From Rhodothermus marinus (GTDB lineage Bacteria; Bacteroidota; Rhodothermia; Rhodothermales; Rhodothermaceae), in contig NZ_AP019797.1 of the NCBI RefSeq assembly GCF_009936275.1, positions 2,773,890-2,837,889 of the forward strand: a stretch of 64,000 bases of DNA, written 5' to 3'. How positions within the stretch are numbered: the first letter of the stretch is position 1; each line of letters begins with the position of its first letter. Both the position numbers and the translations under genes were made by a program. The notes below the pieces were generated by a model that did not search any database, was not told the DNA's origin, and was given only the letters and a program-made list of their open reading frames with translations. Of the stretch, positions 518 through 18,124 are shown piece by piece.

Positions 518-632
518 AGTATCGCCCGTCTGGTAGCAAACTCAAGGAAAAGTTGCCCGTCTCGCTGGAAAATTATGCCTTTTCCGGACGAATCACGCCC
601 GGCAAATCCGCGCGTTTCCGCACCTGCAACAC

Positions 633-648
633 TGGCAATGCTTTTGCC
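633..648 (+). promoter_or_regulatory. candidate sigma-54 promoter of the flagellar operon
   Basis: The sequence TGGCAATGCTTTTGCC has the invariant GG and GC exactly 10 bases apart and matches TGGCA-N6-TTGC. The -12 GC lies about 42 bases upstream of the flgF ATG, leaving a leader of about 30 nt. Sigma-54 commonly drives middle flagellar genes. No enhancer-binding regulator is encoded in this window, so the site is inferred from sequence and position only. Confidence 0.55.
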
Positions 649-688
649 GGAGGCCTCCTCGGGTTCATTCAGCCATCCTGCCCTGCCC

Positions 689-1417
689 ATGCTGTTACGC
701 CTGCAGAATGCCGCGGCGTCGATGACCGAGGCGATCCGCCAGCAGGAACGTCTCGCCAACAACCTGGCCAACGTCAACACGGCCGGCTATAAACAGGAGC
801 GCTTCTTCGTGGAGGCGCTCAACGAACGGCTCGACGCCGAACGCTCGCCGAGAAGCGACCGGCGCCTCACGCAGTGGAACGACCTGACCCAGGGGGCGCT
901 CGAGCACACGGGCAGCCCGCTGGACGTGGCCATCGAAGGCGACGGTTTCTTCGTGGTCACCGATGCGGCGACCGGGGCCACCTTCTACACGCGCGCCGGC
1001 CAGTTTCGACTGGACGGGGAAGGTTACCTGCGCACGATCGACGGCCTGCTTGTGGAAGGCGAAGACGGTCCGATCCAGCTCCTGCCCCACGAGCGCAACC
1101 GCACGCTTTCGATCAGTCAGGACGGCGTGCTGCGCGCCGACGAACGCGAGGTCGCCCGCCTGCGCATCGTGCGCTTCGCCCGCCCCGAAGCGCTGCAGCG
1201 CGTCGAAGGCGCCCGCTTTGCCGCCACCGACCAGGAGCCCCTTCCGGTCGAAACACCCCATCTGCGCCCTGGCTTCCTGGAAAGCAGCAACGTAAATCCG
1301 GTGCTCGCCATGACCGAGATGATCGAGCACTTTCACCGCTTCGAGACGCAGCAGAAGGTCATCCAGACCACCGATCAGCTGCTCGGACAGATTACCCGGG
1401 ATCTCGGAAAGTTCTAA
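689..1417 (+). CDS. flgF: Flagellar basal-body rod protein FlgF
   Basis: A proximal/distal rod subunit of the FlgE/F/G family, 242 aa. The N-terminal rod signature NNLANVNTAGYKQ lies near residues 26-38. The D1 region has SPLDVAIEGDGFF, and the C-terminal helix has GFLESSNVNPV and MTEMI, as in all axial proteins. The frame stays open far upstream, but rod proteins start a few residues before the amphipathic N-helix, so MLLRLQNAAA at 689 is chosen. It is the first gene of the rod/ring/hook operon, 18 nt before flgG. Like other axial proteins it is exported by the flagellar type III apparatus without a cleaved signal. Confidence 0.93.
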   Translation: MLLRLQNAAASMTEAIRQQERLANNLANVNTAGYKQERFFVEALNERLDAERSPRSDRRLTQWNDLTQGALEHTGSPLDVAIEGDGFFVVTDAATGATFYTRAGQFRLDGEGYLRTIDGLLVEGEDGPIQLLPHERNRTLSISQDGVLRADEREVARLRIVRFARPEALQRVEGARFAATDQEPLPVETPHLRPGFLESSNVNPVLAMTEMIEHFHRFETQQKVIQTTDQLLGQITRDLGKF

Positions 1418-1435
1418 ACCATCCGTCGTGCACTT

Positions 1436-2224
1436 ATGCTTCGGGCCCTCCGCACCGCCGCGCTGGGCATGAACGCCCAGCAGACCAACGTCGATAACAT
1501 CGCCCACAACCTGGCCAACGCCAACACGACGGGCTTCAAAAACGCCCGCGTGGTCTTTCAGGACCTGCTCTACCAGACCGTCCAGACGCCCGGCCAGGAA
1601 GAAGCCGAGGGGCTCACGCCACCGGCCTCGCTGCAACTGGGCAGCGGTGTGGCCGTCGTGGCCACCGTGCGCCAGTTCACGCAGGGCAGCCTGGTGGAAA
1701 CCGGCAACGCACTGGACCTGGCCATCAACGGCGACGGCTTCTTCCAGATTCGGCGGCCAGACGGCACCATCGTTTACACGCGCGACGGCACCTTCACGCT
1801 GAACGCCGACGGCACATTCGTCACGCAGACCGGCCTTCCGCTCGAGCCCGAGCTGAGCGTGCCCCCCGATACCATCGAGATTCACATCAGCCAGGATGGC
1901 GTCGTGTCGGTCCGGCTGCAGGGCGAGACGGAAAGCGTGGAGATCGGCCGGCTCGAGCTGGCCCGCTTCCCGAACCCGGCCGGCCTGCGGGCCATCGGTG
2001 GCAACCTCTACGAGCAGACCGAAGCCAGCGGCTTTCCGATCCTGGGGGCACCCGGTGAGGAGGGCTTCGGCACGGTCAAGCAGGGCTTTCTGGAAGCGGC
2101 CAACGTGGACGTCGTGCAGGAGATGGTCAACCTGATCACGGCCCAGCGGGCCTACGAGATCAACTCGAAGATGGTTACCACCACGGAAGAAATGCTCCAG
2201 ACGGCCAGCCAGATGAAGCGCTGA
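1436..2224 (+). CDS. flgG: Flagellar distal rod protein FlgG
   Basis: 262 aa, the usual FlgG length. The N-terminus MLRALRTAALGMNAQQ is followed by HNLANANTTGFKNAR, the rod signature. ALDLAINGDGFFQI marks the core, and the C-terminus has GFLEAANVDVVQEMVNLI and RAYEINSKM, diagnostic of FlgG. It forms the distal rod that passes through the P and L rings encoded just downstream. Its stop overlaps the flgA start (ATGA), which implies translational coupling. Confidence 0.95.
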   Translation: MLRALRTAALGMNAQQTNVDNIAHNLANANTTGFKNARVVFQDLLYQTVQTPGQEEAEGLTPPASLQLGSGVAVVATVRQFTQGSLVETGNALDLAINGDGFFQIRRPDGTIVYTRDGTFTLNADGTFVTQTGLPLEPELSVPPDTIEIHISQDGVVSVRLQGETESVEIGRLELARFPNPAGLRAIGGNLYEQTEASGFPILGAPGEEGFGTVKQGFLEAANVDVVQEMVNLITAQRAYEINSKMVTTTEEMLQTASQMKR

Positions 2225-2949
2225 TGATGCGGCTGCTGTGGATCATCGGGCTGTTGCAGGTGCTCGGCCTGCGTCCGGCCGCCGAGCCGGTGGACGTGCG
2301 GCTCCGGCACGCGATCGATTCGCTGCTGGCCGATGCGTTTCCCGCGCTGGTCGGCCATCTGGAGCCGCGCCTGGTGCGCTATCAGGCCGCCGAATCCGAT
2401 CGGATTCAGTTGCGTCTGCCGCCGGCCGTCGACGATCCCACGGGCTCCCTGCAGGTCGAGATCTGGACGCCTGACCCCCGCGGCGCATGGCGCAAGGCGG
2501 GCTGGGCCCTGTTCTACGTGGCCCGGTACGACTCGGTCATCGTCGCCCGCCAGGCGCTCCGCCGCGACGAGCCGGTCAATCCAGGCGCCCTGGAGATCAT
2601 CTGGCAGGAAACCACCCGGCTCCGGACACCTCCGCTGACCCCGACCCGGCTTCGCCAGCTCCAGCGGCAGGGGCCGCTGCTGGCCGTGCGCTCCGTAGCG
2701 GCCGGACAGGTCCTGCGCGCCGACGATCTGCGCCCGCCCTATGCCGTCCAGACCGGCGAAACCGTCTGGATGCACTATCGCCGGGGCGGCATTCTGTTGC
2801 GCCTGCGCTGCCAGGCCCGCGCGGCCGGCTTCGTGGGCGACGTGATCGAACTGTACGCGCCCCAGACGCGGGCCACCTATCGAGGCCGCATCGTGGCTCC
2901 CGGACTGGTGGAATGGATCGCCACCCTGCAACCATACGAACCGCATTGA
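2224..2949 (+). CDS. flgA: P-ring assembly chaperone FlgA
   Basis: 241 aa with an N-terminal hydrophobic stretch (MMRLLWIIGLLQVLGL) that should direct Sec export to the periplasm, where FlgA helps FlgI form the P ring. The C-terminal half (about residues 100-240) is SAF-like: ARQALRRDEPV, then LAVRSVAAGQVLRADDL, then a closing beta region with AAGFVGDVIEL. There are two possible ATGs, the first overlapping the flgG stop and the second one codon later; the first is listed. It lies between the rod and ring genes, as in many flagellar operons. Confidence 0.88.
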   Translation: MMRLLWIIGLLQVLGLRPAAEPVDVRLRHAIDSLLADAFPALVGHLEPRLVRYQAAESDRIQLRLPPAVDDPTGSLQVEIWTPDPRGAWRKAGWALFYVARYDSVIVARQALRRDEPVNPGALEIIWQETTRLRTPPLTPTRLRQLQRQGPLLAVRSVAAGQVLRADDLRPPYAVQTGETVWMHYRRGGILLRLRCQARAAGFVGDVIELYAPQTRATYRGRIVAPGLVEWIATLQPYEPH

Positions 2950-2952
2950 CCC

Positions 2953-3534
2953 ATGCGTGCCCTTTTGCTTGCATTGAGTCTGCTGCTGCCCGGCCTCTCG
3001 GCCGTGGCCCAGTCGTCCCTGTATGCCGACTTCCGCGCGGTGCGTCCGGGCGACGTCATCACGATCATCCTGGCCGAGCGCACCGCCGCCCAGCGCGAGA
3101 GCAACTTCGAACATCTGGCCAATGCCAAAATCGGCGGCGCCGGCGCCGTCAGCGGCACGCTGGGCGGCAAGTTCAGCGCCGACGCAACGTTTTCGCGCGA
3201 GAGCAAGGCCAACAACGAAACGCTCCAGCGCGACCTGCTCGAGGGCACCGTCACGGCGCTTGTCGTGGGCATCGACTCCACCACGGGCAACCTGCTCATC
3301 CGGGGCGAACGCAAACTCAACATCAACGGCGTCACGCACCTGATGCGCATTTCCGGCACGGTGCGGCCCTACGACGTGCGCTACGACAACACGGTGTTTT
3401 CCTACCAGATTGCCAACGCGCATATCGAGTACCGACAGAGCGGCCTGCCGCGCAAGTTCTTCCGTCCGGGCTTCCTGACGCGTCTGGGCGCCCTGGCGCT
3501 GATCGGTGCCGCCATTGCCCTCGGGGTTCAGTAA
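2953..3534 (+). CDS. flgH: Flagellar L-ring protein FlgH (no lipobox)
   Basis: 193 aa. The core is typical FlgH: RPGDVITIILAERT, a Gly/Ala-rich stretch (about residues 55-75), GTVTALVVGIDSTTGNL and IRGERKLNINGV, ending in VRPYDVRYDNTV and IANAHIEYR. FlgH forms the outer-membrane L ring. Canonical FlgH is a lipoprotein, but here the signal peptide ends LSAVAQSS with no cysteine, so a signal peptidase I type is expected. The C-terminus adds a hydrophobic segment (LGALALIGAAIALGV) that could anchor the protein. It starts 3 nt after flgA and is followed by flgI. Confidence 0.92.
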   Translation: MRALLLALSLLLPGLSAVAQSSLYADFRAVRPGDVITIILAERTAAQRESNFEHLANAKIGGAGAVSGTLGGKFSADATFSRESKANNETLQRDLLEGTVTALVVGIDSTTGNLLIRGERKLNINGVTHLMRISGTVRPYDVRYDNTVFSYQIANAHIEYRQSGLPRKFFRPGFLTRLGALALIGAAIALGVQ

Positions 3535-3550
3535 ACGAGCGGAAAGTGCC

Positions 3551-4666
3551 ATGCGTCGGCTGATTTTGCTCGGACTGTTGCTGTTGCTGCTGCCGCTCCT
3601 GCCCGCCCGGGGTCAGGACGCCGGACAGGCACGCCTGAAGGATCTAATCACGGTGGAAGGCGCCGCGCCGATCCAGCTCATCGGCTACGGGCTGGTGGTG
3701 GGACTGGACCGCACGGGCGACCGGGCCCGCGGCCAGCGCGGCTCGCCCTACACGGTGCAGAGCATCGCCAACATGCTGCGCCGCTTCGGGATCACCGTCG
3801 ATCCCAACCTGCTGCAGGCCCGGAATGCCGCCGCCGTCATGGTGACGGCCACGCTGGATCCGTTTGCGGCGCCGGGCACGCGCCTGGATGTGACCGTCTC
3901 GGCGCTGGGCGACGCCCGCTCGCTCTCCGGCGGCGTCCTGCTCCAGACCCCCCTGCAGGATCCCACCACCGGGCAGGTGTATGCCATCGCGCAGGGGCCC
4001 GTATCGACCGGCGCCGTGCTCGCCTCCAGTTTCGGTTCTTCGGTCCAGATCAACCACACGAACACGGGCCGCGTGCCGGGCGGTGCCGTGGTGACGGCCG
4101 CCCCGCCGGTCACGCTCGGCGGGCCGCAACTGGGCCTGGTGCTCAAACGGCCCGACTTCGTAAACGCCACGCGCATTGCCGAAGCCATTAACGGCCGCTA
4201 CCCGAACACGGCCGAGGTGGTGCACGCCGGACTGGTGCGCGTCAACCTCCCCAACGGCGTCAACAACCCCGCGCAACTGCTGGCCGAACTGGAGCCGTTG
4301 ACCATCGACGTGGACATCCCGGCGCGGGTCGTCATCAACGAACGCACGGGCACCATCGTGGCCGGTGGCAACGTGCGCATCAGCGAAGTGATGATCACCT
4401 ACGGCAGCCTGGTCATTTCCACCCAGGCCGAGCCGTTCGTGGCCCAGCCGCCCCCCTTCAGCCAGGGCGAAACGGTCACCGGCGCACGTGCCACCATCGA
4501 CGTGCAGGAAGAAGTGGCCCGCTCGGTGGTGCTGGGTCCCAACGCCGACGTCGCCCAGCTGGCCGCCGCCCTCAACGAGCTGGGGCTGACCGCCCGCGAC
4601 ATCATCGCCATCTTTCAGGCCATCGAACGCGCCGGAGCCCTCCAGGGAGAACTGGTCATTCTGTAA
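3551..4666 (+). CDS. flgI: Flagellar P-ring protein FlgI
   Basis: 371 aa, standard length. A Sec signal peptide (MRRLILLGLLLLLLPLLPARG) precedes RLKDLITVEGAAPIQLIGYG, the near-invariant FlgI start, then GLVVGLDRTGD, and the C-terminal ALNELGLTARDIIAIFQAI. FlgI polymerises around the rod in the periplasm with FlgA assistance. A GTG 45 nt upstream is also in frame but lies inside flgH and would bury the signal peptide. The ATG at 3551 has the GCC context common in this genome. Confidence 0.95.
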   Translation: MRRLILLGLLLLLLPLLPARGQDAGQARLKDLITVEGAAPIQLIGYGLVVGLDRTGDRARGQRGSPYTVQSIANMLRRFGITVDPNLLQARNAAAVMVTATLDPFAAPGTRLDVTVSALGDARSLSGGVLLQTPLQDPTTGQVYAIAQGPVSTGAVLASSFGSSVQINHTNTGRVPGGAVVTAAPPVTLGGPQLGLVLKRPDFVNATRIAEAINGRYPNTAEVVHAGLVRVNLPNGVNNPAQLLAELEPLTIDVDIPARVVINERTGTIVAGGNVRISEVMITYGSLVISTQAEPFVAQPPPFSQGETVTGARATIDVQEEVARSVVLGPNADVAQLAAALNELGLTARDIIAIFQAIERAGALQGELVIL

Positions 4667-4669
4667 GCC

Positions 4670-5011
4670 ATGATCGAGCAAATTCAACCATCGCCGGGAC
4701 CCACCGGCAGCGCCGCCCTGCTGGGCGTGCGCCGGCCGCATACGCCCGAAGAGGCCGCCCGCCAGTTTGAAGAGATCCTGCTGCGCCAGTTTGTGCAGGC
4801 GATGACGCGCGACCTCTTCCGCGCGTCGCTGAGCGGCGACGAAGCACCCGGCTGGCTGGGCTCCTACCGCGACACGCAGCGCGACGTGCTGACCGACGTA
4901 CTGGCCCGCCACCTGGCCGAGCAGGGCCGACTGGGCATCGCCGAACTGCTCCTGCGCCAGTGGCGGCAGGCCGGACACCTTTCCGCGAACGAATCGGAGA
5001 CGAACCCATGA
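4670..5011 (+). CDS. FlgJ-like rod-binding domain protein (no muramidase domain)
   Basis: 113 aa, the size of the N-terminal rod-capping half of FlgJ alone. AARQFEEILLRQFVQAMTRD matches the conserved A..FE..LL..ll..M motif, and YRDTQRDVLTDVLARHLAEQ matches the second helix ending in a.~GGiG-like LGIAEL. The peptidoglycan-hydrolase half of enterobacterial FlgJ is missing, as in many non-gammaproteobacteria, so a separate lytic enzyme must open the wall for the rod. It starts 3 nt after flgI, and its stop overlaps the next start (ATGA). Confidence 0.82.
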   Translation: MIEQIQPSPGPTGSAALLGVRRPHTPEEAARQFEEILLRQFVQAMTRDLFRASLSGDEAPGWLGSYRDTQRDVLTDVLARHLAEQGRLGIAELLLRQWRQAGHLSANESETNP

Positions 5012-5532
5012 GCGTCCCGTCCAACATCCTGCAGCAGTTTATCGAAGCGATCGAAGAAGAATTGCACCTGCTGGGCCAACTCGAACAGAGCTTCGAAGCT
5101 CAGCTCGAAGCCCTGCGACGCCACGACCACGAAGCGCTGGAACAGGCGGCCATGCAGACCAGCGAGCTGGTCACCCGGCTCGAACGCCTTCAGCAGAAGC
5201 GCGCCGGCAAGGGACGCCTGCTGCGCCGCATGTTGAAGCTGGAGCTGACGGCCTCGACCGAGCAGCTGCTGGCCGCCCTCGAAGCCCGCCCGGAAACGCA
5301 GGCGGCCGCCCATACGCTTCGCGGATTGCAGCAGCGGCTCCAGGGGCAGCTCCAGCAGACACGCCAGCGCTGCGAATCGCTTGAGTTTTCGCTGAAATAC
5401 GCGATACAAATAGGACAGGAGCTGCTGGAATTGCTGCAGGCGTTGGACCAGCCCGCCAGCCGCGTGTACACCCCCACCGGACAGACCCGGCAGGCCAGCC
5501 CGCAACGATCCGTCGTCAATCGCCTGGGGTAA
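5008..5532 (+). CDS. flgN: FlgN-family hook-filament junction chaperone
   Basis: 174 aa and almost entirely alpha-helical, with long runs of Leu, Gln and Glu (LQQFIEAIEEELHLLGQLEQ, then LRRHDHEALEQAAMQTSEL). This fits a coiled-coil export chaperone. FlgN proteins bind the C-termini of FlgK and FlgL, which are encoded immediately downstream. Sequence conservation in this family is low, so the call rests on size, helical character and position. The tail (about residues 155-174) is polar and probably disordered. The start overlaps the FlgJ-like stop. Confidence 0.75.
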   Translation: MSVPSNILQQFIEAIEEELHLLGQLEQSFEAQLEALRRHDHEALEQAAMQTSELVTRLERLQQKRAGKGRLLRRMLKLELTASTEQLLAALEARPETQAAAHTLRGLQQRLQGQLQQTRQRCESLEFSLKYAIQIGQELLELLQALDQPASRVYTPTGQTRQASPQRSVVNRLG

Positions 5533-5535
5533 GCA

Positions 5536-6930
5536 ATGAGCCTGAATCAACTGTTCAGCCTGACGCGCCGCTCGTTCCAGACGATCCAGGCGGCGATGAA
5601 CACCGTCGGGCAGAACGTAGCCAATGCCAACACCGAGGGCTACGCGCGCCGGCGCGTGACATTACAGGCCGTCAACATCCGGGATACGGGCCTTTACACG
5701 GCCCTTCCGCCCCGCTCGGCCACCGGGATGGGCGTTTCGGTGGCCACCTACGAACGCCTGCGCGATCACCTGCTCGACGTGGCCGCCTGGGACGCCCGCG
5801 CCAGCCTGGGCGCCTCCGACGAAGAAACGCGCATCTACCAGGTACTGGAAAGCCTGCTGGCCGCCGACGACGACACCGGTCTGGCCGCTCTGCTGAACGA
5901 TTTCTGGAACCGCTGGAGCGACCTGGCCGACAACCCCACCGACACGGGCGTCCGCGAAGCGCTGCGCGGCCAGGCTCAGACGCTCATCGACACATTCCAC
6001 CGGCTGGCCCGCGATCTGGACACGCTCACCACCCAGACCACCGAAACGCTGCGCGACGCCGTCGATCAGGCCAACAGCCTGCTCGAAGAGCTGGCCTCGC
6101 TCAACGCCACGATCCAGGCCGCCCGCCAGAAAGGCAATCCGGATCTGGTGGCCGAAGACCGCCGCGACCAGCTCGTCCATGAGCTGGCCGAGCTGCTCCC
6201 TGTCCAGGTCCACGCCCTGGAAGACGGTTCCTATCAGCTCACCGTCAATGGCATGGCGCTCGTGCAGGGCGACCGGGTCATGCCGCTGACGCTGGACCTG
6301 AGCGGCGGCACGCCCTCGCTGACCTTCGGCAACACGGGCATCGCCTTCCGGGCACCCGAGGGGCAGGACGGCCGCATCGGTGCCCAGTTGCGTATGCTGA
6401 CGCAGACGATCCCCGACGTGCGTCAGCGGCTCGACACGCTGGCCGCCACGCTGGTCAACGAGGTCAACAGCCGCCATGCAAGCGGCTACGGCCTCGACGG
6501 CCTGACCGGCCGCGCCTTCTTCGATCCGGCCGGAACCACGGCTTCCACGATCGCCCTGTCGGCCGACGTACTGGCCGACAGCCGCGCCATCGCCGCCTCG
6601 GGCGACCCCACCGCCCCGGGCGACAACAGCATCGCCCTCCAGATTGCCGGACTGCGCGACGCCCTGCTCTTCAACGGCGGCACCGAAACGGCCGAAACCT
6701 ACGCGATCAACCTGGCCGGAAGCATCGGCGCGGCCGCGAAAGACGCTACGGGCCGCCTGGAGCGCTCGCGGGCGACCATCGACCACCTGGACGCGCTCCA
6801 GCAGGGCGTCATGGGCGTCTCGCTCGACGAAGAGCTGACCAACATGATCCGTTTCCAGCAGGCTTACGCGGCCACCGCGCGCGTGCTGGACACCGCCCGG
6901 AGCATGATGGACACGCTGCTGAACCTCTGA
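5536..6930 (+). CDS. flgK: Hook-associated protein 1 FlgK
   Basis: 464 aa, somewhat shorter than the enterobacterial protein (about 550), through a smaller variable surface domain. The N-terminus LTRRSFQTIQAAMNTVGQNV and VANANTEGYARRRV is the axial signature of FlgK. FNRWSDLADNPTD-like FWNRWSDLADNPT (about residues 115-130) and DLVAEDRRDQLVHELAELLP are typical of HAP1. The C-terminus has GVSLDEELTNMIRFQQAYAA and ends in a terminal helix. It joins hook to filament and is exported by the flagellar secretion system. It lies 3 nt after flgN. Confidence 0.95.
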   Translation: MSLNQLFSLTRRSFQTIQAAMNTVGQNVANANTEGYARRRVTLQAVNIRDTGLYTALPPRSATGMGVSVATYERLRDHLLDVAAWDARASLGASDEETRIYQVLESLLAADDDTGLAALLNDFWNRWSDLADNPTDTGVREALRGQAQTLIDTFHRLARDLDTLTTQTTETLRDAVDQANSLLEELASLNATIQAARQKGNPDLVAEDRRDQLVHELAELLPVQVHALEDGSYQLTVNGMALVQGDRVMPLTLDLSGGTPSLTFGNTGIAFRAPEGQDGRIGAQLRMLTQTIPDVRQRLDTLAATLVNEVNSRHASGYGLDGLTGRAFFDPAGTTASTIALSADVLADSRAIAASGDPTAPGDNSIALQIAGLRDALLFNGGTETAETYAINLAGSIGAAAKDATGRLERSRATIDHLDALQQGVMGVSLDEELTNMIRFQQAYAATARVLDTARSMMDTLLNL

Positions 6931-6941
6931 AGTAGTCGGCC

Positions 6942-7874
6942 ATGGATCCGCTCAACGTTGCCTTTACCCGCCAGCAGAGCCTCTATCAGGCCCTGGCCGA
7001 GCGCCAGATTCAGGAGCGCCGGCTGGAGCTGGCCCGGCTGCAGGAGCAGATGGCGACCGGCCGCCGCGTCAACCGTCCCTCCGACGACCCGGGCGCCTAC
7101 ACCCGGAGTCAGGCGCTGCGCCGGCTGGCCCAGCGCTACGACCAGCACGAGCGCACGCTGACCATCGGACGGGCCTGGCTGACCGCCACCGAAGACGCTC
7201 TCTCGACGCTCGTCGATCTCTTCAACAGCGCCTACGAAGAAGGCGTGCGCATGGCCACCGATACGGCCTCGACGGCCGACCGCGCCACCACGGCCGACGT
7301 GCTCGAACAGCGCCTGCAGGCCGTGCTCGACCAGCTCAACGCCCGCCACAACGGCGAATACCTGTTCGCCGGCACCCGCACCACCACGCAACCCTTCCAG
7401 CTCAGCGGCGGCACCGTCGTCTATAACGGCAACGACCAGACGCGCCTGCTGGAAATTGCACCCGGTCTCCAGATCGCCATCAATCTGACGGGCAACGATG
7501 TCTGGGAAGTGGACGAAAACGGCGACAGCGTCACGGACTTCACCATCACCGAGGCCTGGCAGGACCTGATCGATGCACTCCGGGCCGACGACACGACGCA
7601 GATTCAGAACGCCATGGCCCGGGTGGAAGCCGCGCGCGATCACCTGCTCGATCGTATCGCGCAGGTGGGCGAAACCTCCCGCCGTCTGTCGATGGCCGAG
7701 ACGGAACTGCAGGACGCCCGCCTGCGCCTCGAATCGCAGCGAAGCGATCTGGAAGACGCCGACTTTGCCGAAATCGCCGTCAAACTGCAGCGCAATCAGC
7801 TCAGTCTCGAAGCCACCCTCCAGGTAACCTCCCGCCTGCTGCAAACCAGCCTGCTGAACTATCTGGCGCCATGA
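6942..7874 (+). CDS. flgL: Hook-associated protein 3 FlgL
   Basis: 310 aa, flagellin-like. LARLQEQMATGRRVNRPSDD is the conserved N-terminal D0/D1 signature of FlgL and flagellins. LNARHNGEYLFAGTRTTTQP is the HAP3 hallmark. The C-terminal helix has AEIAVKLQRNQLSLEATLQV, then LLQTSLLNYL. It forms the second junction ring below the filament. The start at 6942 has the GCC-ATG context. The stop overlaps the next gene (ATGA), so the downstream TPR protein is probably translated with it. Confidence 0.95.
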   Translation: MDPLNVAFTRQQSLYQALAERQIQERRLELARLQEQMATGRRVNRPSDDPGAYTRSQALRRLAQRYDQHERTLTIGRAWLTATEDALSTLVDLFNSAYEEGVRMATDTASTADRATTADVLEQRLQAVLDQLNARHNGEYLFAGTRTTTQPFQLSGGTVVYNGNDQTRLLEIAPGLQIAINLTGNDVWEVDENGDSVTDFTITEAWQDLIDALRADDTTQIQNAMARVEAARDHLLDRIAQVGETSRRLSMAETELQDARLRLESQRSDLEDADFAEIAVKLQRNQLSLEATLQVTSRLLQTSLLNYLAP

Positions 7875-8695
7875 TGCACGGATCGTTTCTGGAAAACTTT
7901 CGCCTGCCGCTGCCCGCATTTGAGCGGACGGAGCAGCTCGGTGAGCGGCTACGTGCGCTCTGGGAAGCCGTCCGCCGCCGGGAATCCCGACGCGTGCTGA
8001 CCCAGGCCGCTCCCCTGCTGGCCCTGCCCGAGATGGCGGCTCCCGAAGCGCGTGCGGCACTCCTCAATGCGCTGGGGGCCGCGCGCATGCAGCTTCGCCA
8101 CTACGAAGCGGCCGAGCGCATGCTGCGGCTCTCGCTGGCCGCCCTGCCCACCCAGTGGATGGCCACGCGCCTGCTCGTGCACGTCTGCGAAGTGCAGCGA
8201 CGCTACGAAATGGCCTACGATCTGCTGGAGCACCTGCGGGGACGGCCGGCCATGGCTTCCTGGGACGAGCCGCTTTCCGACACGGAATGGCATCTGGGCA
8301 TGGCAGCGCTGGCCTGGCGGCTGCGCCGGTGGAAAGTCGTCAGCACGCACGTGCGTGCCGCTTTCCCGAAGGTTACCGAGATGCCGCCAGCGCTGCAGGC
8401 CGACCTGCTGCGCCTGGCTTTCTACCGGGAGCGTCCCGCCGAGGCACTGGCCATGGCCCGCCACCTGCTCGAACAGCAACCCGACGAGCAGGCCGTCGAT
8501 ACGCTGCTGCAGACGTTCGTCCAGCAGGGCTGGAAACAGGAAGCCTGCATGCTCTACCGCCAGGCCTACCAGCGCTACCCGGAGAGCGAACGCTTTCGCC
8601 GACGCCTGGTAGCGCTCTGCCTGCAGACCGGTGCCGTCGAAGAGGCGCGCCGACTGGCCCGCCTGGGCGCGCTCTCGCTGGATGTCGAACCATAA
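7871..8695 (+). CDS. TPR-like helical repeat protein, translationally coupled to flgL
   Basis: 274 aa with no signal peptide or membrane segment. It is built of helical pairs with TPR-like spacing: AALLNALGAARMQLRHYEAA, then LLVHVCEVQRRYEMAYDLLE, then a Trp-rich pair, then AEALAMARHLLEQQPDEQAV and ACMLYRQAYQRYPESERFRR. I do not recognise a named family. In many bacteria fliW-csrA follows flgL; here this protein takes that place, and its ATG overlaps the flgL stop. A role in flagellar assembly or its regulation is inferred from coupling only. The product is probably a cytoplasmic scaffold. Confidence 0.7.
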   Translation: MMHGSFLENFRLPLPAFERTEQLGERLRALWEAVRRRESRRVLTQAAPLLALPEMAAPEARAALLNALGAARMQLRHYEAAERMLRLSLAALPTQWMATRLLVHVCEVQRRYEMAYDLLEHLRGRPAMASWDEPLSDTEWHLGMAALAWRLRRWKVVSTHVRAAFPKVTEMPPALQADLLRLAFYRERPAEALAMARHLLEQQPDEQAVDTLLQTFVQQGWKQEACMLYRQAYQRYPESERFRRRLVALCLQTGAVEEARRLARLGALSLDVEP

Positions 8696-8707
8696 CCCAC
8701 CGAACCG

Positions 8708-9646
8708 ATGCACGCGGCGCGTCCGACCCTGAGCCGACTGGAACTGCGCTGTCCACCGCTTCCCCAGACACTGGTGGAAGCCATGAAATTGCTCAACCGG
8801 CCCGATCAGCTCGAAGTGAAGCCGATCACCCGGCTGGTGGAGCGTGACCCCGTCGTAGTGGCCCGCCTGCTGCAGATCGTCAACTCGGCCTACTACGGGC
8901 TGCGCCGCACGGTCAGCAGCGTCGAACGCGCCGTGGTGCTGCTGGGGCCGGTCAGTGTGGCCGGCATCATCGTGGGCATGCACATGCTGCGGCTGCGCAC
9001 CACGCTGCCCGGTTCGGCCATGGCCTGCTTCAACCGACTGGCCCAGCACTGCCAGGCCACCGCCTTTCTGGCCCGCCACCTGCTCGAGACGGTGTTGCCC
9101 CGCCTGAGCGGCCAGACGGGCGTGGGCTTCACGGCCGGCCTGCTGCATGATTTCGGCAAAATCATTCTGATCTATAACTTTCCCCATGAAGCCGTCGGCT
9201 TCTACGAGCAGCAACGCCTGCAAAACGAAGTGCAGGCCAGCGACGAGCGCCACCTGGAGCAGCTTCTGTTCGGTTGCGACCACACCGAGGCCGGCGAATA
9301 CGTGGCGCGCAAGCTGAACTTTCCCGATGTGCTCGTCGATGTGATCCGCTACCACCACGCGCCCCACCAGACGCCCGCTACCAGCGAGGCCTACATGATC
9401 ACGCCGGCCGTGGCCGTGGCCGACCTGGTCGCCCGCACCATGGGCTACGCCTTCACGCACCCGCTGAGTCCGGAGCAGTGCCTGGAGCATCCGGCCTGGC
9501 AACTGCTGCTAAAGCGTTACAAACTGAGTGACTGGACTCCCCAAAGCCTGTTGGCCCACCTGCAGGAGCAGCAGGAATTCCTGGACCAGCACGTGCAACA
9601 TCTGAGCCTCCCCAACCCGCTCCAGCATAACCGACGCGCCCTATGA
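8708..9646 (+). CDS. HDOD-domain protein
   Basis: 312 aa. The HDOD domain covers about residues 12-215: LPQTLVEAMKLLN, then IVNSAYYGLRRTVSSVERAV (the S..yg...i.s...Ai motif), VSVAGIIVGM, and GLLHDFGKIIL, which keeps the HD-type HD pair. DHTEAGEYVARKLNFPDVLV and IRYHHAP complete it. HDOD proteins are signalling outputs, often fused to or next to receiver domains and frequently linked to motility or c-di-GMP. The stop overlaps the following receiver-like gene (ATGA), so the two are probably made together. It lies 12 nt after the TPR gene, so it probably belongs to the flagellar transcript. Confidence 0.85.
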   Translation: MHAARPTLSRLELRCPPLPQTLVEAMKLLNRPDQLEVKPITRLVERDPVVVARLLQIVNSAYYGLRRTVSSVERAVVLLGPVSVAGIIVGMHMLRLRTTLPGSAMACFNRLAQHCQATAFLARHLLETVLPRLSGQTGVGFTAGLLHDFGKIILIYNFPHEAVGFYEQQRLQNEVQASDERHLEQLLFGCDHTEAGEYVARKLNFPDVLVDVIRYHHAPHQTPATSEAYMITPAVAVADLVARTMGYAFTHPLSPEQCLEHPAWQLLLKRYKLSDWTPQSLLAHLQEQQEFLDQHVQHLSLPNPLQHNRRAL

Positions 9647-10098
9647 AACTGCTGCTGATCGAACCCTCCCAGCTTCGTTGCCGCATCAGCAACCTGCTGC
9701 GGCTGGGCGGCATCGAAGATGTCACCGAAGCGACGAGCAGCACCGAAGCGCTCCGGCTGCTGCAGAAACAGGTTTTCGATCTGCTGCTCATCGGTCCCAC
9801 CGTGAAGGACCCTTCCGGTCTGGAATTGCTGCGCCGCGTGCGCCAGATGGAAGGCCATGAAGATACGGCCGCGCTGATCTTTCTGGACATGCCCACCGAC
9901 GAACTCGTGCTGGAAGCGGCCGAACTGGACGTGCAGGGCATCATCGTGGTGCCTTTTGAAGACGACTACCTGCTCTACCGCGTGCGCGAGACGCTGCGCA
10001 AGCTGCGCCAGCGCCGGCTGCAGGCCGAAAAGCCCGCCTACCGCAAGCGCCTGCACCTGGTTACTTCTTCCAGTCCCGGCAAATCCTCCACGACATAG
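9643..10098 (+). CDS. Degenerate receiver-domain protein
   Basis: 151 aa, one CheY-like fold of about 120 aa with a short basic tail. The fold is readable: beta1 KLLLIEPSQL, beta3 FDLLLIGPTVKDPSGLELLR, beta4 AALIFLDMP, beta5 VQGIIVVPFEDDYL. The key residues are gone. The acidic pair after beta1 is Glu-Pro, the phospho-acceptor Asp after beta3 is Gly, and the beta5 Lys of KP is Val. The PSGLELLRRVR helix and the PF pair remain. The protein is therefore unlikely to be phosphorylated and is probably a pseudo-receiver working with the overlapping HDOD protein. Confidence 0.8.
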   Translation: MKLLLIEPSQLRCRISNLLRLGGIEDVTEATSSTEALRLLQKQVFDLLLIGPTVKDPSGLELLRRVRQMEGHEDTAALIFLDMPTDELVLEAAELDVQGIIVVPFEDDYLLYRVRETLRKLRQRRLQAEKPAYRKRLHLVTSSSPGKSSTT

Positions 10099-10198
10099 GA
10101 GGAACCGTTTCCAAAATGCCCGCCGGTCTTCTCATTCAGCGCCTCGGGCCGTAGATTTCCGGGCAAGACCTTCAGCCGTAAACCAATCCGGCTCGCCC

Positions 10199-12028
10199 AT
10201 GCACCTGACGTGGCTCGACGGCGTGCTGATCGCCGCCTATTTCGTCTTTTCGCTGGGAATCGCGCTGTATTACTATCGCCGCGCCGGAAAAGACACGTCG
10301 GAGTTTTTCCTCTCCGGCCGCAGCATGCCCTGGTGGCTGGCGGGCACCAGCATGGTGGCCACCACGTTCGCGGCCGACACGCCGCTGGCCGTCTCGGAGC
10401 TGGTAGCCTACAACGGCATCGCGGGCAACTGGCTCTGGTGGAATTTCGCGTTGGGTGGCGTGCTCACCGTGTTTTTCTTCGCCCGGCTCTGGCGGCGCAG
10501 CGGCGTGCTGACCGACGTCGAGTTCGTCGAACTGCGCTACAGCGGACCGGCCGCTGCCTGGCTGCGCGGCATCAAGGCCGTCTACTTCGGCCTGCTGATG
10601 AACGTGATCATCATCGGCTGGGTGTCGCTCGCCATGGAAACGGTGATCGACGTGCTGTTTCCGGGGCTGACGCTCTTCGGCCGCGCGTCGTTCACATTGC
10701 TGGGCATCAAAATGAGCGCCTCGCTGGTGCTCGTCGGACTGCTGGTCCTGCTGGTGGGCGTCTACTCGCTGATTTCCGGGCTGTGGGGGGTGGCCGTCAC
10801 CGACCTGTTTCAGTTCGTGCTGGCCATGGTGGGCACCACGCTGCTGGCCTTCTTTGCGCTGGACTTGCCCGAAGTGGGCGGTCTGGCCGGACTGAAAGCC
10901 CGCCTTCCGGAGACCACCTTCCGCATGCTGCCCACCATCGGCGAGGCGGCGCAGGGCGCGGGCGTGCTGGCGCTCTCGGCTGCCGCCTTTGCGGCCTACG
11001 TGGGCGTGCAGTGGTGGGCGAGCTGGTATCCGGGCGCCGAGCCGGGCGGCGGCGGTTACATCGCCCAGCGCATGCTGGGAGCGAAGGACGAGCGACACGC
11101 CGTGTTCTCCGTGCTCTGGTTCAACATCGCCCACTACTGCCTGCGGCCCTGGCCCTGGATCCTGACCGCTCTGGTGGCGCTGCTGCTCTTTCCGGACGAA
11201 AACCCCCGCGCCGCCTACGTGCTCGTCATGCGCGACACGCTGCCCCCGGGCCTGCTGGGCCTGCTGTTTGCCGCCTTTCTGGCCGCCTTCATGAGCACGG
11301 TCTCGACCCAGCTCAACTGGGGCGTCTCGTACCTGGTCAACGACGGCTGGCGCCGCTTTGTGCGCCCCGACGCCGACGAAAAGCACTACGTGCGCGTCGG
11401 GCGCGTGCTGACCTTCCTGTTGGCCGTCGTCAGCGTGCTGGTCACCACCCAGCTCGAATCCATCAGCGGCGCCTGGAGCCTGATTCTGACCGCCTCGGGT
11501 GGGCTGGGCCTTGTGCTGATCCTGCGCTGGTACTGGTGGCGCGTCAACGCCTGGAGCGAACTGACGGCCACGCTCGTACCGCTATTTCTGGCCGGGCTGG
11601 CCCTGCTGGGGGTGCCCGTGCCGGGGCTGCTGGATCCCTTCCCCACCAACCTGTTCGCCGTTGTCGCCTACACGACGCTGGCCTGGGTGACCGTCACGCT
11701 CTTCACACCACCGACCGACACGGCCACGCTCGACGCCTTCTATCGCCGGGTGCGTCCCGCCGGACCCGGCTGGCGTCCCATCGCCGCCCGCCATCCCGAC
11801 ATCTACCCCGATACTTCGCTGGGCACGCTGGCCCTCGACTGGCTGGCCGGCGTCGTGCTCGTCTACAGCACGCTGTTCGGCATCGGCCAGCTCCTGGTGG
11901 GTTCGGCCGGGCTGGGCCTGTTGCTGCTGGCCGTGGCCGTCGGTGCCGGCGCGTTTCTCTGGCGCCATCTGCGCCATCAGTTGCCCCACCCTACCCCGGC
12001 TTCGCGAAACGTCCCGCCGGCCGATTGA
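10199..12028 (+). CDS. Sodium:solute symporter (SSS family)
   Basis: 609 aa polytopic inner-membrane protein with about 13-14 segments. YYYRRAGKDTSEFFLSGRSM and WWLAGTSMVATTFAADTPLA are the conserved SSS loop 1/TM2 region with the Na+-binding TFAADTPL stretch; AAFLAAFMSTVSTQLNWGVS is the TM8 Na2-site motif. Substrate is not readable. This subfamily (long C-terminal part, GLGLVLILRWYWWRVNAWSE) resembles uncharacterised Bacteroidota transporters. The frame is open upstream into the receiver gene, but MHLTWLDGVLIAAYF at 10199 places the first membrane helix correctly. About 100 nt separate it from the previous gene. Confidence 0.88.
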   Translation: MHLTWLDGVLIAAYFVFSLGIALYYYRRAGKDTSEFFLSGRSMPWWLAGTSMVATTFAADTPLAVSELVAYNGIAGNWLWWNFALGGVLTVFFFARLWRRSGVLTDVEFVELRYSGPAAAWLRGIKAVYFGLLMNVIIIGWVSLAMETVIDVLFPGLTLFGRASFTLLGIKMSASLVLVGLLVLLVGVYSLISGLWGVAVTDLFQFVLAMVGTTLLAFFALDLPEVGGLAGLKARLPETTFRMLPTIGEAAQGAGVLALSAAAFAAYVGVQWWASWYPGAEPGGGGYIAQRMLGAKDERHAVFSVLWFNIAHYCLRPWPWILTALVALLLFPDENPRAAYVLVMRDTLPPGLLGLLFAAFLAAFMSTVSTQLNWGVSYLVNDGWRRFVRPDADEKHYVRVGRVLTFLLAVVSVLVTTQLESISGAWSLILTASGGLGLVLILRWYWWRVNAWSELTATLVPLFLAGLALLGVPVPGLLDPFPTNLFAVVAYTTLAWVTVTLFTPPTDTATLDAFYRRVRPAGPGWRPIAARHPDIYPDTSLGTLALDWLAGVVLVYSTLFGIGQLLVGSAGLGLLLLAVAVGAGAFLWRHLRHQLPHPTPASRNVPPAD

Positions 12029-12071
12029 GTATCAGAGGGGCGTTTACGAAGCAGCCGTCACAGCAGGCACC

Positions 12072-12491
12072 ATGCACAAGTTTCGGGGGGAACTGATCAT
12101 CGTCGGCGATCGCGTGCTGATCGAGCCGGACGAAGGGGAACGCCAGACGCAGACCGGCCTGTACCTGCCGGCCACCGTGGTGGAACGCGAGCGCGTGGGC
12201 ACAGGCCGCGTCGTCAAGGTGGGGCCGGGCTATTTGATGCCCAACCCGGAATACTCCGAAAGCGAACCCTGGGCCTCGCACAAGGAGGCCGTCCGCTACC
12301 TGCCGCTGCAGGCCCAGCCCGGCGATTACGCTTTCTTTCTGAAAAAGGATGCCATCGAACTGACCTACGAAAACCGCAACTACGTGATCGTCCCCCACAG
12401 CGCCATTCTGGCCCTGGTGCGCCCGCACACCGAAGACATTCTGGAGAACCTGGACGACCTGGAAGACCTGGACGATTTGCTCAATTCATAG
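12072..12491 (+). CDS. GroES-family (Cpn10-like) protein with insert and acidic tail
   Basis: 139 aa against about 95 for GroES. GDRVLIEPDEGERQTQTGLY, then ERVGTGRVVKVGPG, matches the GroES core including the mobile-loop region and the GxVVxVGPG strand. A segment of about 30 aa (YLMPNPEYSESEPWASHKEA) replaces the roof loop, and the C-terminus ends in an Asp/Glu/Leu repeat (LDDLEDLDDLLNS). No groEL is adjacent. It could be a specialised co-chaperonin or a GroES-fold protein with another job. The start has an ACC-ATG context, 43 nt after the symporter. Confidence 0.75.
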   Translation: MHKFRGELIIVGDRVLIEPDEGERQTQTGLYLPATVVERERVGTGRVVKVGPGYLMPNPEYSESEPWASHKEAVRYLPLQAQPGDYAFFLKKDAIELTYENRNYVIVPHSAILALVRPHTEDILENLDDLEDLDDLLNS

Positions 12492-12508
12492 CCATTTCTC
12501 CGAAATGG
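12492..12508 (+). terminator. short hairpin after GroES-like gene
   Basis: CCATTTC and GAAATGG pair perfectly around a 3-nt loop directly after the stop codon and are followed by TCGTTT. The T run is short, so this is only a possible terminator. The next gene converges from the other strand. Confidence 0.35.
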
Positions 12509-12613
12509 TCGTTTAGTCGGCAAAGCCGCCACCCGTTCGCGGTCAGGGTGTCGTTCAGATAACCCGCTTTCCCTCACAGCCTGGTGCGCAGACGCCTTTG
12601 CTCCCTGGTATCG

Positions 12614-14440
12614 CTATCCCATCTGCTCCCACCAGGGCCGATCTTCGTCGAGCGCTACGGAAGCAGCGGGCGGCGGGGTATGGACGACGGAAGGCGGCGG
12701 TGGCACCGGGGGCGTCGGTGCCGACTCGGGTGAGGGCAAAGGGCGCAACCGCAGCAGGTAGGCCAGATAATGGGCGAACGTCAGCGGAGGAAGGGCGGCC
12801 AGCCGTTGGGACACCTGCTCCCGTTCTGTCTGCTGCACCTGCATGCGCTCGAGCAGCCGCTGCCGCTCTTCCTCGAAGCGGGCCAGCCGCTGGCGCACGT
12901 AGCGCTCCAGACGCAGTTCTTCGGCGGGCGAAAGCCGATCGGGCAGTTCGTCCCGGTAGCGAGCGACCAGTCCGGCCCGCCAGAGGTTGACACGGGCGCG
13001 CGTCTCGTCGCTGAGCTGACGGGCACGGGCCACCCGCTCGGGCGTGGCCTGATAGGCGTTGCGAATGCCGGCCGCCTTGAGCCGGATCACCACCTTGTGC
13101 GACAGCCCTTCGAACTGCGCGGCCTCGTCGATGAAATGATACTTCAGCCGATCATACAGCGCCTCCTCGCGCAATTCCTCCAGCCGCCGCATCCGGAGCG
13201 TCTGCTGTTGCGTGAGAAACGTACGGCGCTCCACGTCGATCCGGTCGAGCTGCCGGTGCAGCCGCTCCAGCAGGCGGTCGAAGAAGGCCAGTTCGCGCCG
13301 GAGCCGCCGCCGACGTCGCACGATCGGAAGCCGTCGGTAATGCATCAGCGCCAGCCCCAGCGCCGCCAGTCCCCCGATCCCCCACACGATGGTGCCCGCG
13401 GTGAGCCCGACCGCAAGCGTCAGGCCCGCTCCGAGCGCCCCCGTGCCCAGCACGCCCGGAAGCCAGGCCCGTTCGAAACGACTGCGTGCCTCGGATGGCC
13501 GCCGACGCGGCCTGCGCCGCCGAGGACGGACGGACCCGGTCTTTACCGCGCCCTCGTGCACCTCGGCCAGCGAGGGCACCTGCTCGGGCTCCAGGTGACA
13601 GGCCTGTCGAAGCAGCGTCACCAGCGGCCGGATCGGCTCCAGCCCGGCCAGCTCCTGAAACAGCGGCGAGCGGTCCGGTGCGTAAAAGTCGCCCGCCCGG
13701 AACAGCAGCGCTTCGTCGAGCGGGTAGCGACGTCCCAGTTCCGGTCGGTGCTGCAATGCCTGCAGCGCCGTGTAGATGACCAGCGCCGGAAAGCGATCGA
13801 TCCAGGGCCCGAAGTCCGCCTCGCTTCGATCCGGGTGCTGGTAGTTGCGATGGCCGAGTTCGGGGCTTTTGCGACCGCGCAGCGCCGGCACGTACACCGC
13901 GTCGTAATCGACCAGCGTGAGCTTCAATTCGTCCGATTCCTGCGCGACGAGCACGTTGCCGTGCTGCAGGTCGCCGTGGGCCATCTCGGCCGCCTCCAGC
14001 CGGGCCACAAGCGCCACCCAGGCCTCGACCAGGCGCGCGAGCACCTCCGGCGCGTCCAGGTGTTCGGCCACGAAGCGGTTGAGCGGCACACCCTCGGCCC
14101 AGTCCATTTTCAAGAGCGGCCAGGTCTGCTCGTCCACCCGAATGCCGGCTTCCTGAAACGCAAAGTCCACGAAAGGAAGCGACGGGTGGCGCTCCAGATG
14201 TCGGGCCAGCGCCCGGTAACGCTCGGCCAGGTCCGGCACCGGAGCGTGGAAGCAGCGCACGGCCCACCGTCGCGCACGCCCCTGCAGCACGAACACGGTC
14301 GCAAAGGCCCCGCTGATCGCCCGGGGCAGTCCCAGCGCGTCCACCTCGGGCGTGGCCTGTTGCAGCTCCGGATCGGTGAAGGCCGTCTCCGGAAACTGCA
14401 CCGCCTCGCGGTACTGACCGGGTGTGGGGAATGCCGGCAT
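12614..14440 (-). CDS. Kinase-like protein with helix-hairpin-helix domain (TerY-P type, YegI-like)
   Basis: 608 aa. Residues about 30-290 form a protein-kinase-like domain: a glycine loop GAFATVF, RWAVRCFHAPVPDLAERYRA, then AHGDLQHGNVLV (catalytic loop HGD....N) and LVDYDAVYVP in place of DFG. The position of the VAIK lysine is Arg (AVRCF). Two hydrophobic segments follow (around 340-390), then a coiled coil and an HHH-like part (GLSHKVVIRLKAAGIRNAYQ). This is the COG4248 architecture, known to accompany TerY VWA and PP2C proteins. Both partners lie about 3 kb away beyond aceA. It starts 4 nt after the scfR stop, with GCC-ATG context. Binding of nucleic acid by the HHH part is inferred. Confidence 0.82.
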   Translation of the reverse strand: MPAFPTPGQYREAVQFPETAFTDPELQQATPEVDALGLPRAISGAFATVFVLQGRARRWAVRCFHAPVPDLAERYRALARHLERHPSLPFVDFAFQEAGIRVDEQTWPLLKMDWAEGVPLNRFVAEHLDAPEVLARLVEAWVALVARLEAAEMAHGDLQHGNVLVAQESDELKLTLVDYDAVYVPALRGRKSPELGHRNYQHPDRSEADFGPWIDRFPALVIYTALQALQHRPELGRRYPLDEALLFRAGDFYAPDRSPLFQELAGLEPIRPLVTLLRQACHLEPEQVPSLAEVHEGAVKTGSVRPRRRRPRRRPSEARSRFERAWLPGVLGTGALGAGLTLAVGLTAGTIVWGIGGLAALGLALMHYRRLPIVRRRRRLRRELAFFDRLLERLHRQLDRIDVERRTFLTQQQTLRMRRLEELREEALYDRLKYHFIDEAAQFEGLSHKVVIRLKAAGIRNAYQATPERVARARQLSDETRARVNLWRAGLVARYRDELPDRLSPAEELRLERYVRQRLARFEEERQRLLERMQVQQTEREQVSQRLAALPPLTFAHYLAYLLRLRPLPSPESAPTPPVPPPPSVVHTPPPAASVALDEDRPWWEQMG

Positions 14441-14444
14441 GGCG

Positions 14445-15962
14445 TCAGGGCAACCGTCCGTTGCGTACCGCTTCAAGTAATGCTTCCAGCGCGGCTTCTC
14501 GTTCCCGCTGCGCTTCCTGGGCCCGGTACACCTCGGGCTCGGCCGCCCGCTCGGCACAGTCGGCCAGCGGGCAACGCTCGCAGGTCAGGTTGACCTCCAG
14601 ATCCGGCAGCGCCGGGTCCTGCGCAAAATGTACCTGCTCGCGGCAATGCGCGTCCAGCAGAAAGCCGATCGCCACACAGGCATTCTGCTCGGGCGTGAGC
14701 ACCAGCGGACGCGCCAGCGCAACGGTAAAGAACGTGGCGTCTTCGTTGATGAAATGCATGCGGGCCGCTGCCACCAGCGGATCGCCTCCCGGGTCCGGCG
14801 GGGGCGTCTGCGCGGCCAGCCGACGCAGCAGTTGAATGGCCACCCAGCGGCGGCAGTAGTGCTCGCCCAGTCCGATCCCGTGCGGCACCGGCACCCGCGA
14901 CAGGTTGAAGACCTTCGTGAGCTGGAAGCGGTCGGTGCCCGGCCGATGGAACAGCCGCAGGAAAAAGAGCTCCCGCAGGCCGAAGTGCTGCGGGAGCAGT
15001 TCGGTCAGCCGGTAGCAGAGCATTTCGGGCGTGGCGCCGTAGCGTTTCAGAAAGGCCCGGAGCACGGCCCCGTCCCAGTGCGGGTAGCTCAGGAAGGTGC
15101 GCAGATCGGCGCAGAGCGTGGCTTCGTCGAGCAGCAGCGCACCGGCGAAGTAGGAAGCCCGGAAGTTGTTGAGCACCTGGTCGAACGACTCGACGCGCAG
15201 CCAGGACGAGGTGATCGCCCGCTCCTTCAGGTCCAGAAACCGATAGCCCAGCTCACGGGCCAGGATGAAGGCCTGCTGCGCCGGCAGCAACCGGCCGTTG
15301 ACGAACAGTACCGGCTGCGGCCCTTCGGCAAAGACGGAGCGAAAACCGTGCAGCACGGGATGACGCGGAAGCGTCTCCGTGTCGATCCGGTAGCCGTAGT
15401 CTTCTTCCAGGATCCGACGCAGGCGTTCGGGCGGAATCGGCTCGCCGGCGGGCAGGTCATACTCTGTCCGAAACGCGCGCGCGGCCTCTTCCAGCTCCGG
15501 GAAGTAGTTGTTGTGCAGTTGCTGGTAGGAGCGCAGCGCGGCAAACAGGAAGTGCTCTACCTGCACGTCGTACATCTTCCCGATCTCCAGGAAGGTGCGC
15601 ACGAGCGCCCCGGCCTTCGTGGGCTGGTCCGTAAAGAGCTGGAAGAGATCTTCAGGCGTCAGGCCAAACAGCTCGAAGGGAAACTCCTGCACGAAAGCAG
15701 ACGAAAAGACCACGGCCAGCGGATCGAGCCGCTCGTCGAGGCGGGGTGAGATCAGTTCCTCGTAGGAGACGGAAAAGACCGAAGCCAGGTCGATGAGTTT
15801 GTCAGGTTTCGGAAATTTTTTGCCCTTTTCGATCTCGCTCAGGTAGGAGACGGAGAGTCCGGCCCGCGAGGCCACATCCTGGAGCGTCAGGCCGCGTTGC
15901 TGGCGGAGCGCTTTGAGTTTCAGGCCAAGGACGAAGCGTACCAGGTCGGCGTTGAGTTCCAT
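14445..15962 (-). CDS. XRE/ScfR (RamB-type) transcriptional regulator
   Basis: 505 aa. Residues about 8-65 are an XRE helix-turn-helix (KLKALRQQRGLTLQDVASRA, GLSVSYLSEIEKGKKFPKPD). The middle resembles the IrrE/ImmA domain, but the zinc site is lost: FILARELGYRF stands where HELGH would be. The C-terminal ScfR-type domain ends with cysteines (LTCERCPLADCAERA). RamB and its relatives sense short-chain acyl-CoA status and control acetate/propionate genes including isocitrate lyase. Here the gene diverges from aceA, with a palindrome between. The ATG at 15962 is preferred over an upstream GTG-started extension because the HTH begins a few residues later. The kinase gene follows by 4 nt. Confidence 0.87.
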   Translation of the reverse strand: MELNADLVRFVLGLKLKALRQQRGLTLQDVASRAGLSVSYLSEIEKGKKFPKPDKLIDLASVFSVSYEELISPRLDERLDPLAVVFSSAFVQEFPFELFGLTPEDLFQLFTDQPTKAGALVRTFLEIGKMYDVQVEHFLFAALRSYQQLHNNYFPELEEAARAFRTEYDLPAGEPIPPERLRRILEEDYGYRIDTETLPRHPVLHGFRSVFAEGPQPVLFVNGRLLPAQQAFILARELGYRFLDLKERAITSSWLRVESFDQVLNNFRASYFAGALLLDEATLCADLRTFLSYPHWDGAVLRAFLKRYGATPEMLCYRLTELLPQHFGLRELFFLRLFHRPGTDRFQLTKVFNLSRVPVPHGIGLGEHYCRRWVAIQLLRRLAAQTPPPDPGGDPLVAAARMHFINEDATFFTVALARPLVLTPEQNACVAIGFLLDAHCREQVHFAQDPALPDLEVNLTCERCPLADCAERAAEPEVYRAQEAQREREAALEALLEAVRNGRLP

Positions 15963-16042
15963 GAGACAGCTCGCGTGCAGTGTCAGGACCGCCCAGTTAA
16001 CGAACAAGTCGGGCGAAAGTCCCTTTTGTGAAATTTCTGTGT

Positions 16043-18117: not shown

Positions 18118-18124
18118 GGCCGGC

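Follow-up and report, generated by a model that had tools for sequence, protein, structure and literature searches.

TPR and HDOD Proteins Encoded Behind flgL in Rhodothermus marinus: Candidate Regulators in the Sigma-54/Sigma-28 Flagellar Hierarchy

The window analyzed here, a 64,000-nucleotide stretch of the Rhodothermus marinus genome, opens with the flagellar operon flgF-flgG-flgA-flgH-flgI-flgJ-flgN-flgK-flgL, which continues unbroken into genes for a TPR protein, an HDOD-domain protein, and a receiver-like protein. The linkage of the TPR and HDOD genes to flgL is conserved, and the TPR gene, often accompanied by the HDOD gene, is kept with regulators after flagellar loss; thus, a regulatory reading is supported. 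We consider the conclusion that the TPR and HDOD proteins are regulators in the sigma-54/sigma-28 flagellar hierarchy, and not dedicated to filament assembly, to be evenly poised between right and wrong. The elements of the locus, with the basis of their assignment in parentheses, are as follows (window coordinates).

633 to 648, + strand: sigma-54-like -24/-12 site TGGCAATGCTTTTGCC, approximately 40 bp 5' of the flgF start (consensus match only)
689 to 1417, + strand: flgF, first gene of the operon, whose products belong to the rod, ring, and hook junction (tblastn and open reading frame calls over relatives; start codon from sequence)
1436 to 4666, + strand: flgG, flgA, flgH, and flgI
4670 to 5011, + strand: flgJ-like rod-binding protein (Pfam Rod-binding, 6e-7)
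5008 to 5532, + strand: flgN chaperone (Pfam FlgN, 2e-13)
5536 to 6930, + strand: flgK (TIGR02492, 1.5e-90)
6942 to 7874, + strand: flgL (TIGR02550, 4e-60)
7871 to 8695, + strand: TPR protein, 274 aa (Pfam TPR; 20-sequence alignment; AlphaFold; distribution over genomes)
8708 to 9646, + strand: HDOD-domain protein, 312 aa (Pfam HDOD, 3e-41; alignment; tree; PDB relatives)
9643 to 10098, + strand: pseudo-receiver, 151 aa (Pfam Response_reg, 4e-9; aligned against two CheY-like proteins from the flagellar cluster of this genome)
10199: SSF transporter gene, downstream of the receiver gene

The three genes after flgL had been reported as a closely spaced trio by a first-pass annotation of this DNA. 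All three open reading frames are real and have Pfam support, and the short or overlapping gaps were confirmed, at -4 bp between flgL and the TPR gene, +12 bp between the TPR and HDOD genes, and -4 bp between the HDOD and receiver genes (negative values denote overlap). A scan of positions 6900-10400 revealed neither a sigma-70-like promoter nor a convincing terminator directly 3' of the receiver gene, and no RNA families were found in positions 1-16000. Downstream of the SSF transporter gene and a Cpn10-like gene, a minus-strand pair encodes a weakly kinase-like protein (12614-14440) and an HTH-IrrE-type regulator (14448-15962).

Among 60 Rhodothermales genomes, FlgI was found in 27 and FlhA in those same 27, and flgL neighborhoods were read in 25 of these flagellated genomes. 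An HDOD gene follows flgL, directly or after a TPR gene, in 20 of the 25 (seven in family f1, two in f2, one each in f4, f5, and f7, three in f9, two in f11, and three in f13), and a TPR gene follows flgL in 14 (f1, f4, f7, f8, and f11); the neighborhood conservation that had been proposed as a check was thereby borne out. The order flgL-TPR-HDOD recurs in four families (f1, f4, f7, and f11) and flgL-HDOD, with no TPR gene between, in four more (f2, f5, f9, and f13). Therefore, the linkage goes beyond chance. Family f8 carries the TPR gene behind flgL and has dropped the HDOD gene, the TPR gene has been lost in f5, f9, and f13, and f12 has neither gene at this position. Since each gene has been dropped in some families, and both in f12, neither is essential to the Rhodothermales flagellum. 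Neutral hitchhiking, in which the genes would sit downstream with no flagellar or joint role, could account for this patchy presence between families, but it is very improbable: nine families keep a TPR or HDOD gene after flgL, with protein identities of roughly 35-60%, the gene starts overlap, and the genes are retained with regulators after flagellar loss. The remark that other genes stand here in a slot often taken by fliW-csrA also holds: FliW and CsrA were each found in 0 of the 60 genomes, with control genomes positive.

The TPR protein lies just over the Pfam cut-offs for TPR_14 and TPR_19, and its AlphaFold model is all-helical and confident (pLDDT 93). The family, aligned from 20 sequences, has a mean column identity of 57% and is confined to Rhodothermales: 10 of 198 genomes across the phylum were positive, all 10 of them in this order, and when 84,980 species genomes were scanned by pattern, in a search that was not exhaustive, the 26 loci obtained fit the Rhodothermales group by title or gene neighborhood. 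One alternative is that the protein helps to secrete or assemble parts of the filament or hook junction (FlgK, FlgL, or flagellin), either as a chaperone or as an assembly factor. TPR folds are common among type III secretion chaperones, and the TPR start overlaps flgL. The protein also matches the SctY-type secretion chaperones at 29.7 bits; this is under the NCBIfam cut-off of 70, and an SctY-type identity was rejected. Against a chaperone role, the operon already encodes FlgN, and a Foldseek search with the TPR model returned generic TPR repeats as the closest solved folds and nothing more specific. Further evidence on this point comes from relatives that lack a flagellum, as described below.

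The HDOD protein scores 141.5 bits against PF08668 (3e-41; cut-off 22.9), its HD motif is intact (H114, H147-D148), and the structure of Cj0248 (1vqr) is among its PDB relatives (1e-12). In alignment A2, the 15 HDOD sequences from flagellated genomes all keep H114 and D148, and 14 keep H147; among the five from flagella-less genomes, D148 is kept in G023 alone. The other four proteins, all from f4, diverge strongly and no longer have the Asp of the HD motif. Judged from these residues, it is as if the HD motif mattered most where a flagellum is present. The HDOD tree by itself leaves the four divergent f4 proteins unplaced, and a clade uniting them with the flgL-linked group was not rejected (AU p 0.52); therefore, their orthology rests on synteny together with this clade. 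In two f9 genomes, a second HDOD gene follows the first in tandem (L044:7180-8112 and L046:7311-8237).

These features bear on another alternative, namely that the HDOD protein is a receptor for c-di-GMP, or a similar nucleotide, that switches flagellar operons alone, the TPR protein being merely a co-transcribed neighbor. SadB, which combines YbaK and HDOD domains, binds c-di-GMP and controls the flagella of P. fluorescens (PMC6543031), the HDOD gene stands behind flgL without TPR in f2, f5, f9, and f13, and nearly every flagellated member retains the residues of the HD motif. However, the adjacency of TPR and HDOD lasts in flagella-less f4, which argues for a joint role, and we regard a receptor acting by itself as a possibility, if an unlikely one.

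The third gene of the trio has a different standing. Its product exceeds the PF00072 cut-off (37.0 vs. 30.2 bits, E = 4e-9) and carries G51 in place of the phospho-Asp, E7-P8 in place of the acidic pair, and V103 in place of the Lys; on account of these absent residues, it was filed as a pseudo-receiver. Gly occupies the phospho-Asp position in all seven receiver sequences from the two families f1 and f11, and two CheY-like proteins from the same genome's flagellar cluster retain the phospho-Asp in the alignment. The three genes form a looser group than a trio: the pseudo-receiver is limited among the relatives to f1 and f11, where it overlaps the HDOD gene or lies just behind it, and in G004 it is separated from that gene by a TnpB/OrfB-IS605-type gene (L021:9299-10531). 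The trio is loosened further by the families that have HDOD without TPR and by f8, with TPR and no HDOD. In G001, a chemoreceptor gene with an MCP signaling domain follows the pseudo-receiver on the opposite strand (L024:9459-10595).

R. marinus has been described as non-motile, with no visible flagella (PMC3035238); among the relatives, Roseithermus sacchariphilus strain RA is reported to be motile (PMC4943939). A second, large flagellar cluster is nevertheless present in the genus Rhodothermus; in this genome, a single contig of 3.43 Mb, it lies at approximately 909-952 kb, and its genes were named by eye where no profile scan was made. The first part of this Rhodothermus cluster encodes PpiD, FliA, a small protein, FlhG, FlhF, and FlhA through FlgB, and the rest encodes a sensor-less histidine kinase, an NtrC-type activator, FlgM, a FliT-like protein, FliD, FliS, and flagellin. 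The kinase and the sigma-54 activator lie between flgB and flgM/fliD (L059:11718-12440 and 12511-13929). Because the NtrC-type activator scores 329 bits against the NCBIfam FlgR model, below the curated cut-off of 750, it is called FlgR-like only. Rhodothermus FliA is over the cut-off of TIGR02479 (FliA/WhiG; 217 vs. 189.6 bits), and the copy in flagella-less G053 falls just under it at 189.2 bits. Sigma factors of the FliA type, with 55-62% identity to the query, also occur in G011, G024, and G015, which have neither flagella nor TPR, and this type of factor may have wider non-flagellar targets. Just 5' of fliA, with or without flagella, lies a gene for a small hydrophobic protein of approximately 80-110 aa with no Pfam match (L057:14574-14858; L035:11479-11748); it is possibly a membrane protein and may belong to the sigma-28 circuit.

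Eight genomes that lack both FlgI and FlhA still retain the TPR gene (G009, G023, G041, G047, and G053 of f4; G021, G031, and G040 of f2), and seven of these genomes are at least 94% complete; the remnant clusters share descent, so the eight represent few independent events. Five of them, all f4, also keep HDOD. The gene order in G009, G041, G047, and G053 is TPR-HDOD-kinase-NtrC-small protein-FliA-PpiD, and G023 has the same genes with the kinase and NtrC on the other strand; this f4 cluster lies behind the ribosomal gene rplU. In flagella-less f2, TPR is near NtrC and FliA and HDOD is absent, with the TPR contig of G021 too short to tell; FlgM-like genes in f2 loci are weak, under the Pfam cut-off, and were kept out of the main evidence. 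Identity of the remnant proteins to the Rhodothermus flagellar-cluster copies is 63-70% for NtrC, 65-71% for FliA, and 35-40% for the kinase, which was not found in f2, f8, or G033 at the cut-off used. In the flagellated f4 genome G033, the genes PpiD-FliA-...-FlgB-NtrC-FlgM-...-flagellin-HDOD-TPR-flgL lie within approximately 50 kb of one contig, and the f4 remnant order is that of this supercluster with the structural genes missing.

In the TPR tree, G023 groups with flagellated f4 members (97/94), while f2 forms one clade of mixed flagellated and flagella-less members. The remaining remnants fall in a separate 13-row clade (100/99) that includes loci known from the scan only, and genome-wide flagellar absence covers those members that are among the 60 genomes. 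From these three placements, at least three flagellar losses kept TPR. Flagellated f2 members likewise have TPR on the NtrC/FliA side, away from flgL, which indicates that this move preceded flagellar loss. Since TPR survives without a flagellum, a pure chaperone role is hard to reconcile with its distribution, and the f2 arrangement also speaks against it; we hold such a role to be improbable. The first-pass annotation had suggested a regulatory checkpoint for filament assembly. The regulatory part gains support from the conserved linkage and from retention with flagellar regulators after loss, whereas filament assembly is not supported as the main function, because the TPR gene has persisted in at least three lineages after the flagellum was lost.

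Conversely, the main function could lie outside motility, for example in controlling the envelope or growth alongside PpiD and the FliA-type factor, the place in the flagellar operon being secondary. Persistence of the cluster next to rplU and PpiD in at least three lineages that have no flagella would fit such a function, as would the FliA-type factors retained by members of f6 and f10 that lack both flagella and TPR; flagellar genes are reportedly reused in non-flagellated Lysobacter (PMC7277350, PMC9927559). Nevertheless, in flagellated families the genes are mostly within flagellar operons, and the HD residues decay once flagella are gone, as if a constraint had been lifted. We consider a primary role outside motility quite unlikely.

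The regulatory reading also concerns sigma-54; RpoN is present in all 60 genomes. The sigma-54-like sites, for which at least 9 of the 12 consensus positions had to agree, are matches to a consensus among related sequences and not mapped promoters. The site upstream of flgF matches at 9 of 12 positions and is the sole such site in the window; within the genus it is conserved, as in G002, G003, and G004, comparable sites occur in G033 (f4) and f12, and no good site was found 5' of flgF in L027, L031, L039, or L043. Displaced TPR genes have a sigma-54-like site 50-93 bp upstream in 8 of 11 loci (background 5%), with none at L033 and L040, and flagella-less f4 fliA operons have one upstream in five of five cases (background 8%). 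For TPR genes behind flgL the count is zero of six, as expected there. The window's genome also contains two tandem flgE-like open reading frames with identical starts (L058:15854-17530 and 17665-18912), each with the same sigma-54-like site approximately 85 bp upstream.

From this arrangement we infer the regulatory role, its partners, the direction of control, and the use of the sigma-54-like sites. The TPR and HDOD proteins would be cytoplasmic and made together with the products of the rod, hook-junction, and FlgK/FlgL genes, with expression of the flgF operon probably driven by a sigma-54 promoter ahead of its first gene. The two proteins may act back on the histidine kinase and the NtrC-type activator (FlgS/FlgR-like; sigma-54), through which the effect would pass to the FliA (sigma-28)/FlgM pair. 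The HDOD protein would provide the signal-dependent output and the TPR protein an adaptor docking it to a partner, and the pseudo-receiver would be an added, dispensable partner in Rhodothermus and f11. More tentatively, and with less confidence than in a regulatory role as such, it is possible that TPR and HDOD form a hitherto undescribed pair of adaptors acting as a gate on the sigma-54/sigma-28 cascade of Rhodothermales, take the place after flgL left by the absent FliW-CsrA loop, and run the cascade for non-flagellar ends in lineages that have lost the flagellum. Flagellar regulators are usually found via mutants in a few model phyla, and flagellar control is almost unstudied in this one. 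Here, natural, repeated loss of structural genes parts regulators from hardware and flags two uncharacterized proteins as candidate members of the control layer. The role of a sigma-54/sigma-28 cascade in a bacterium without a flagellum thus becomes a testable question.

Several known systems offer points of comparison. The HDOD proteins GsmR (Xanthomonas), Cj0248 (Campylobacter), and SadB (Pseudomonas) are reported to change motility or the expression of flagellar genes (PMC11004494, PMC6543031). The Rhodothermus protein shares their domain, a role in motility being suggested by its genomic context, but differs in lying within the flgF-flgL operon beside an order-specific TPR protein; in addition, SadB has an extra YbaK domain that is absent here. 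Literature searches for HDOD with flgL or with FlhG found nothing. As in the FlgSR, FleSR, and FlrBC systems with sigma-54, a histidine kinase and an NtrC-type activator lie in the flagellar cluster, in keeping with the polar-flagellate program (PMC7064773); however, descriptions of those systems do not include TPR or HDOD as components, that article makes no mention of HDOD, and the activator reaches 329 bits where the curated model for FlgR asks for 750. The FliW-CsrA loop occupies a similar operon place after flgL but involves other protein families. Pseudo-receiver domains in general are Pfam receivers that have lost the phospho-Asp, as here, whereas the present one is peculiar to f1 and f11 and to its position at the HDOD gene. 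Flagella-less Legionella oakridgensis keeps FliA/FlgM despite loss of the flagellar regulon (PMC5655016); regulators likewise outlast the regulon in Rhodothermales, but these keep NtrC (often with the kinase), TPR, and in f4 HDOD, in a compact cluster and in at least three lineages. Thus, HDOD motility regulators and regulators that survive flagellar loss are known already, whereas, within the reach of the searches made, the order-specific TPR family and its pairing with HDOD behind flgL appear new, as does the finding that TPR was retained repeatedly, in f4 together with HDOD, alongside an FlgR-like activator and sigma-28.
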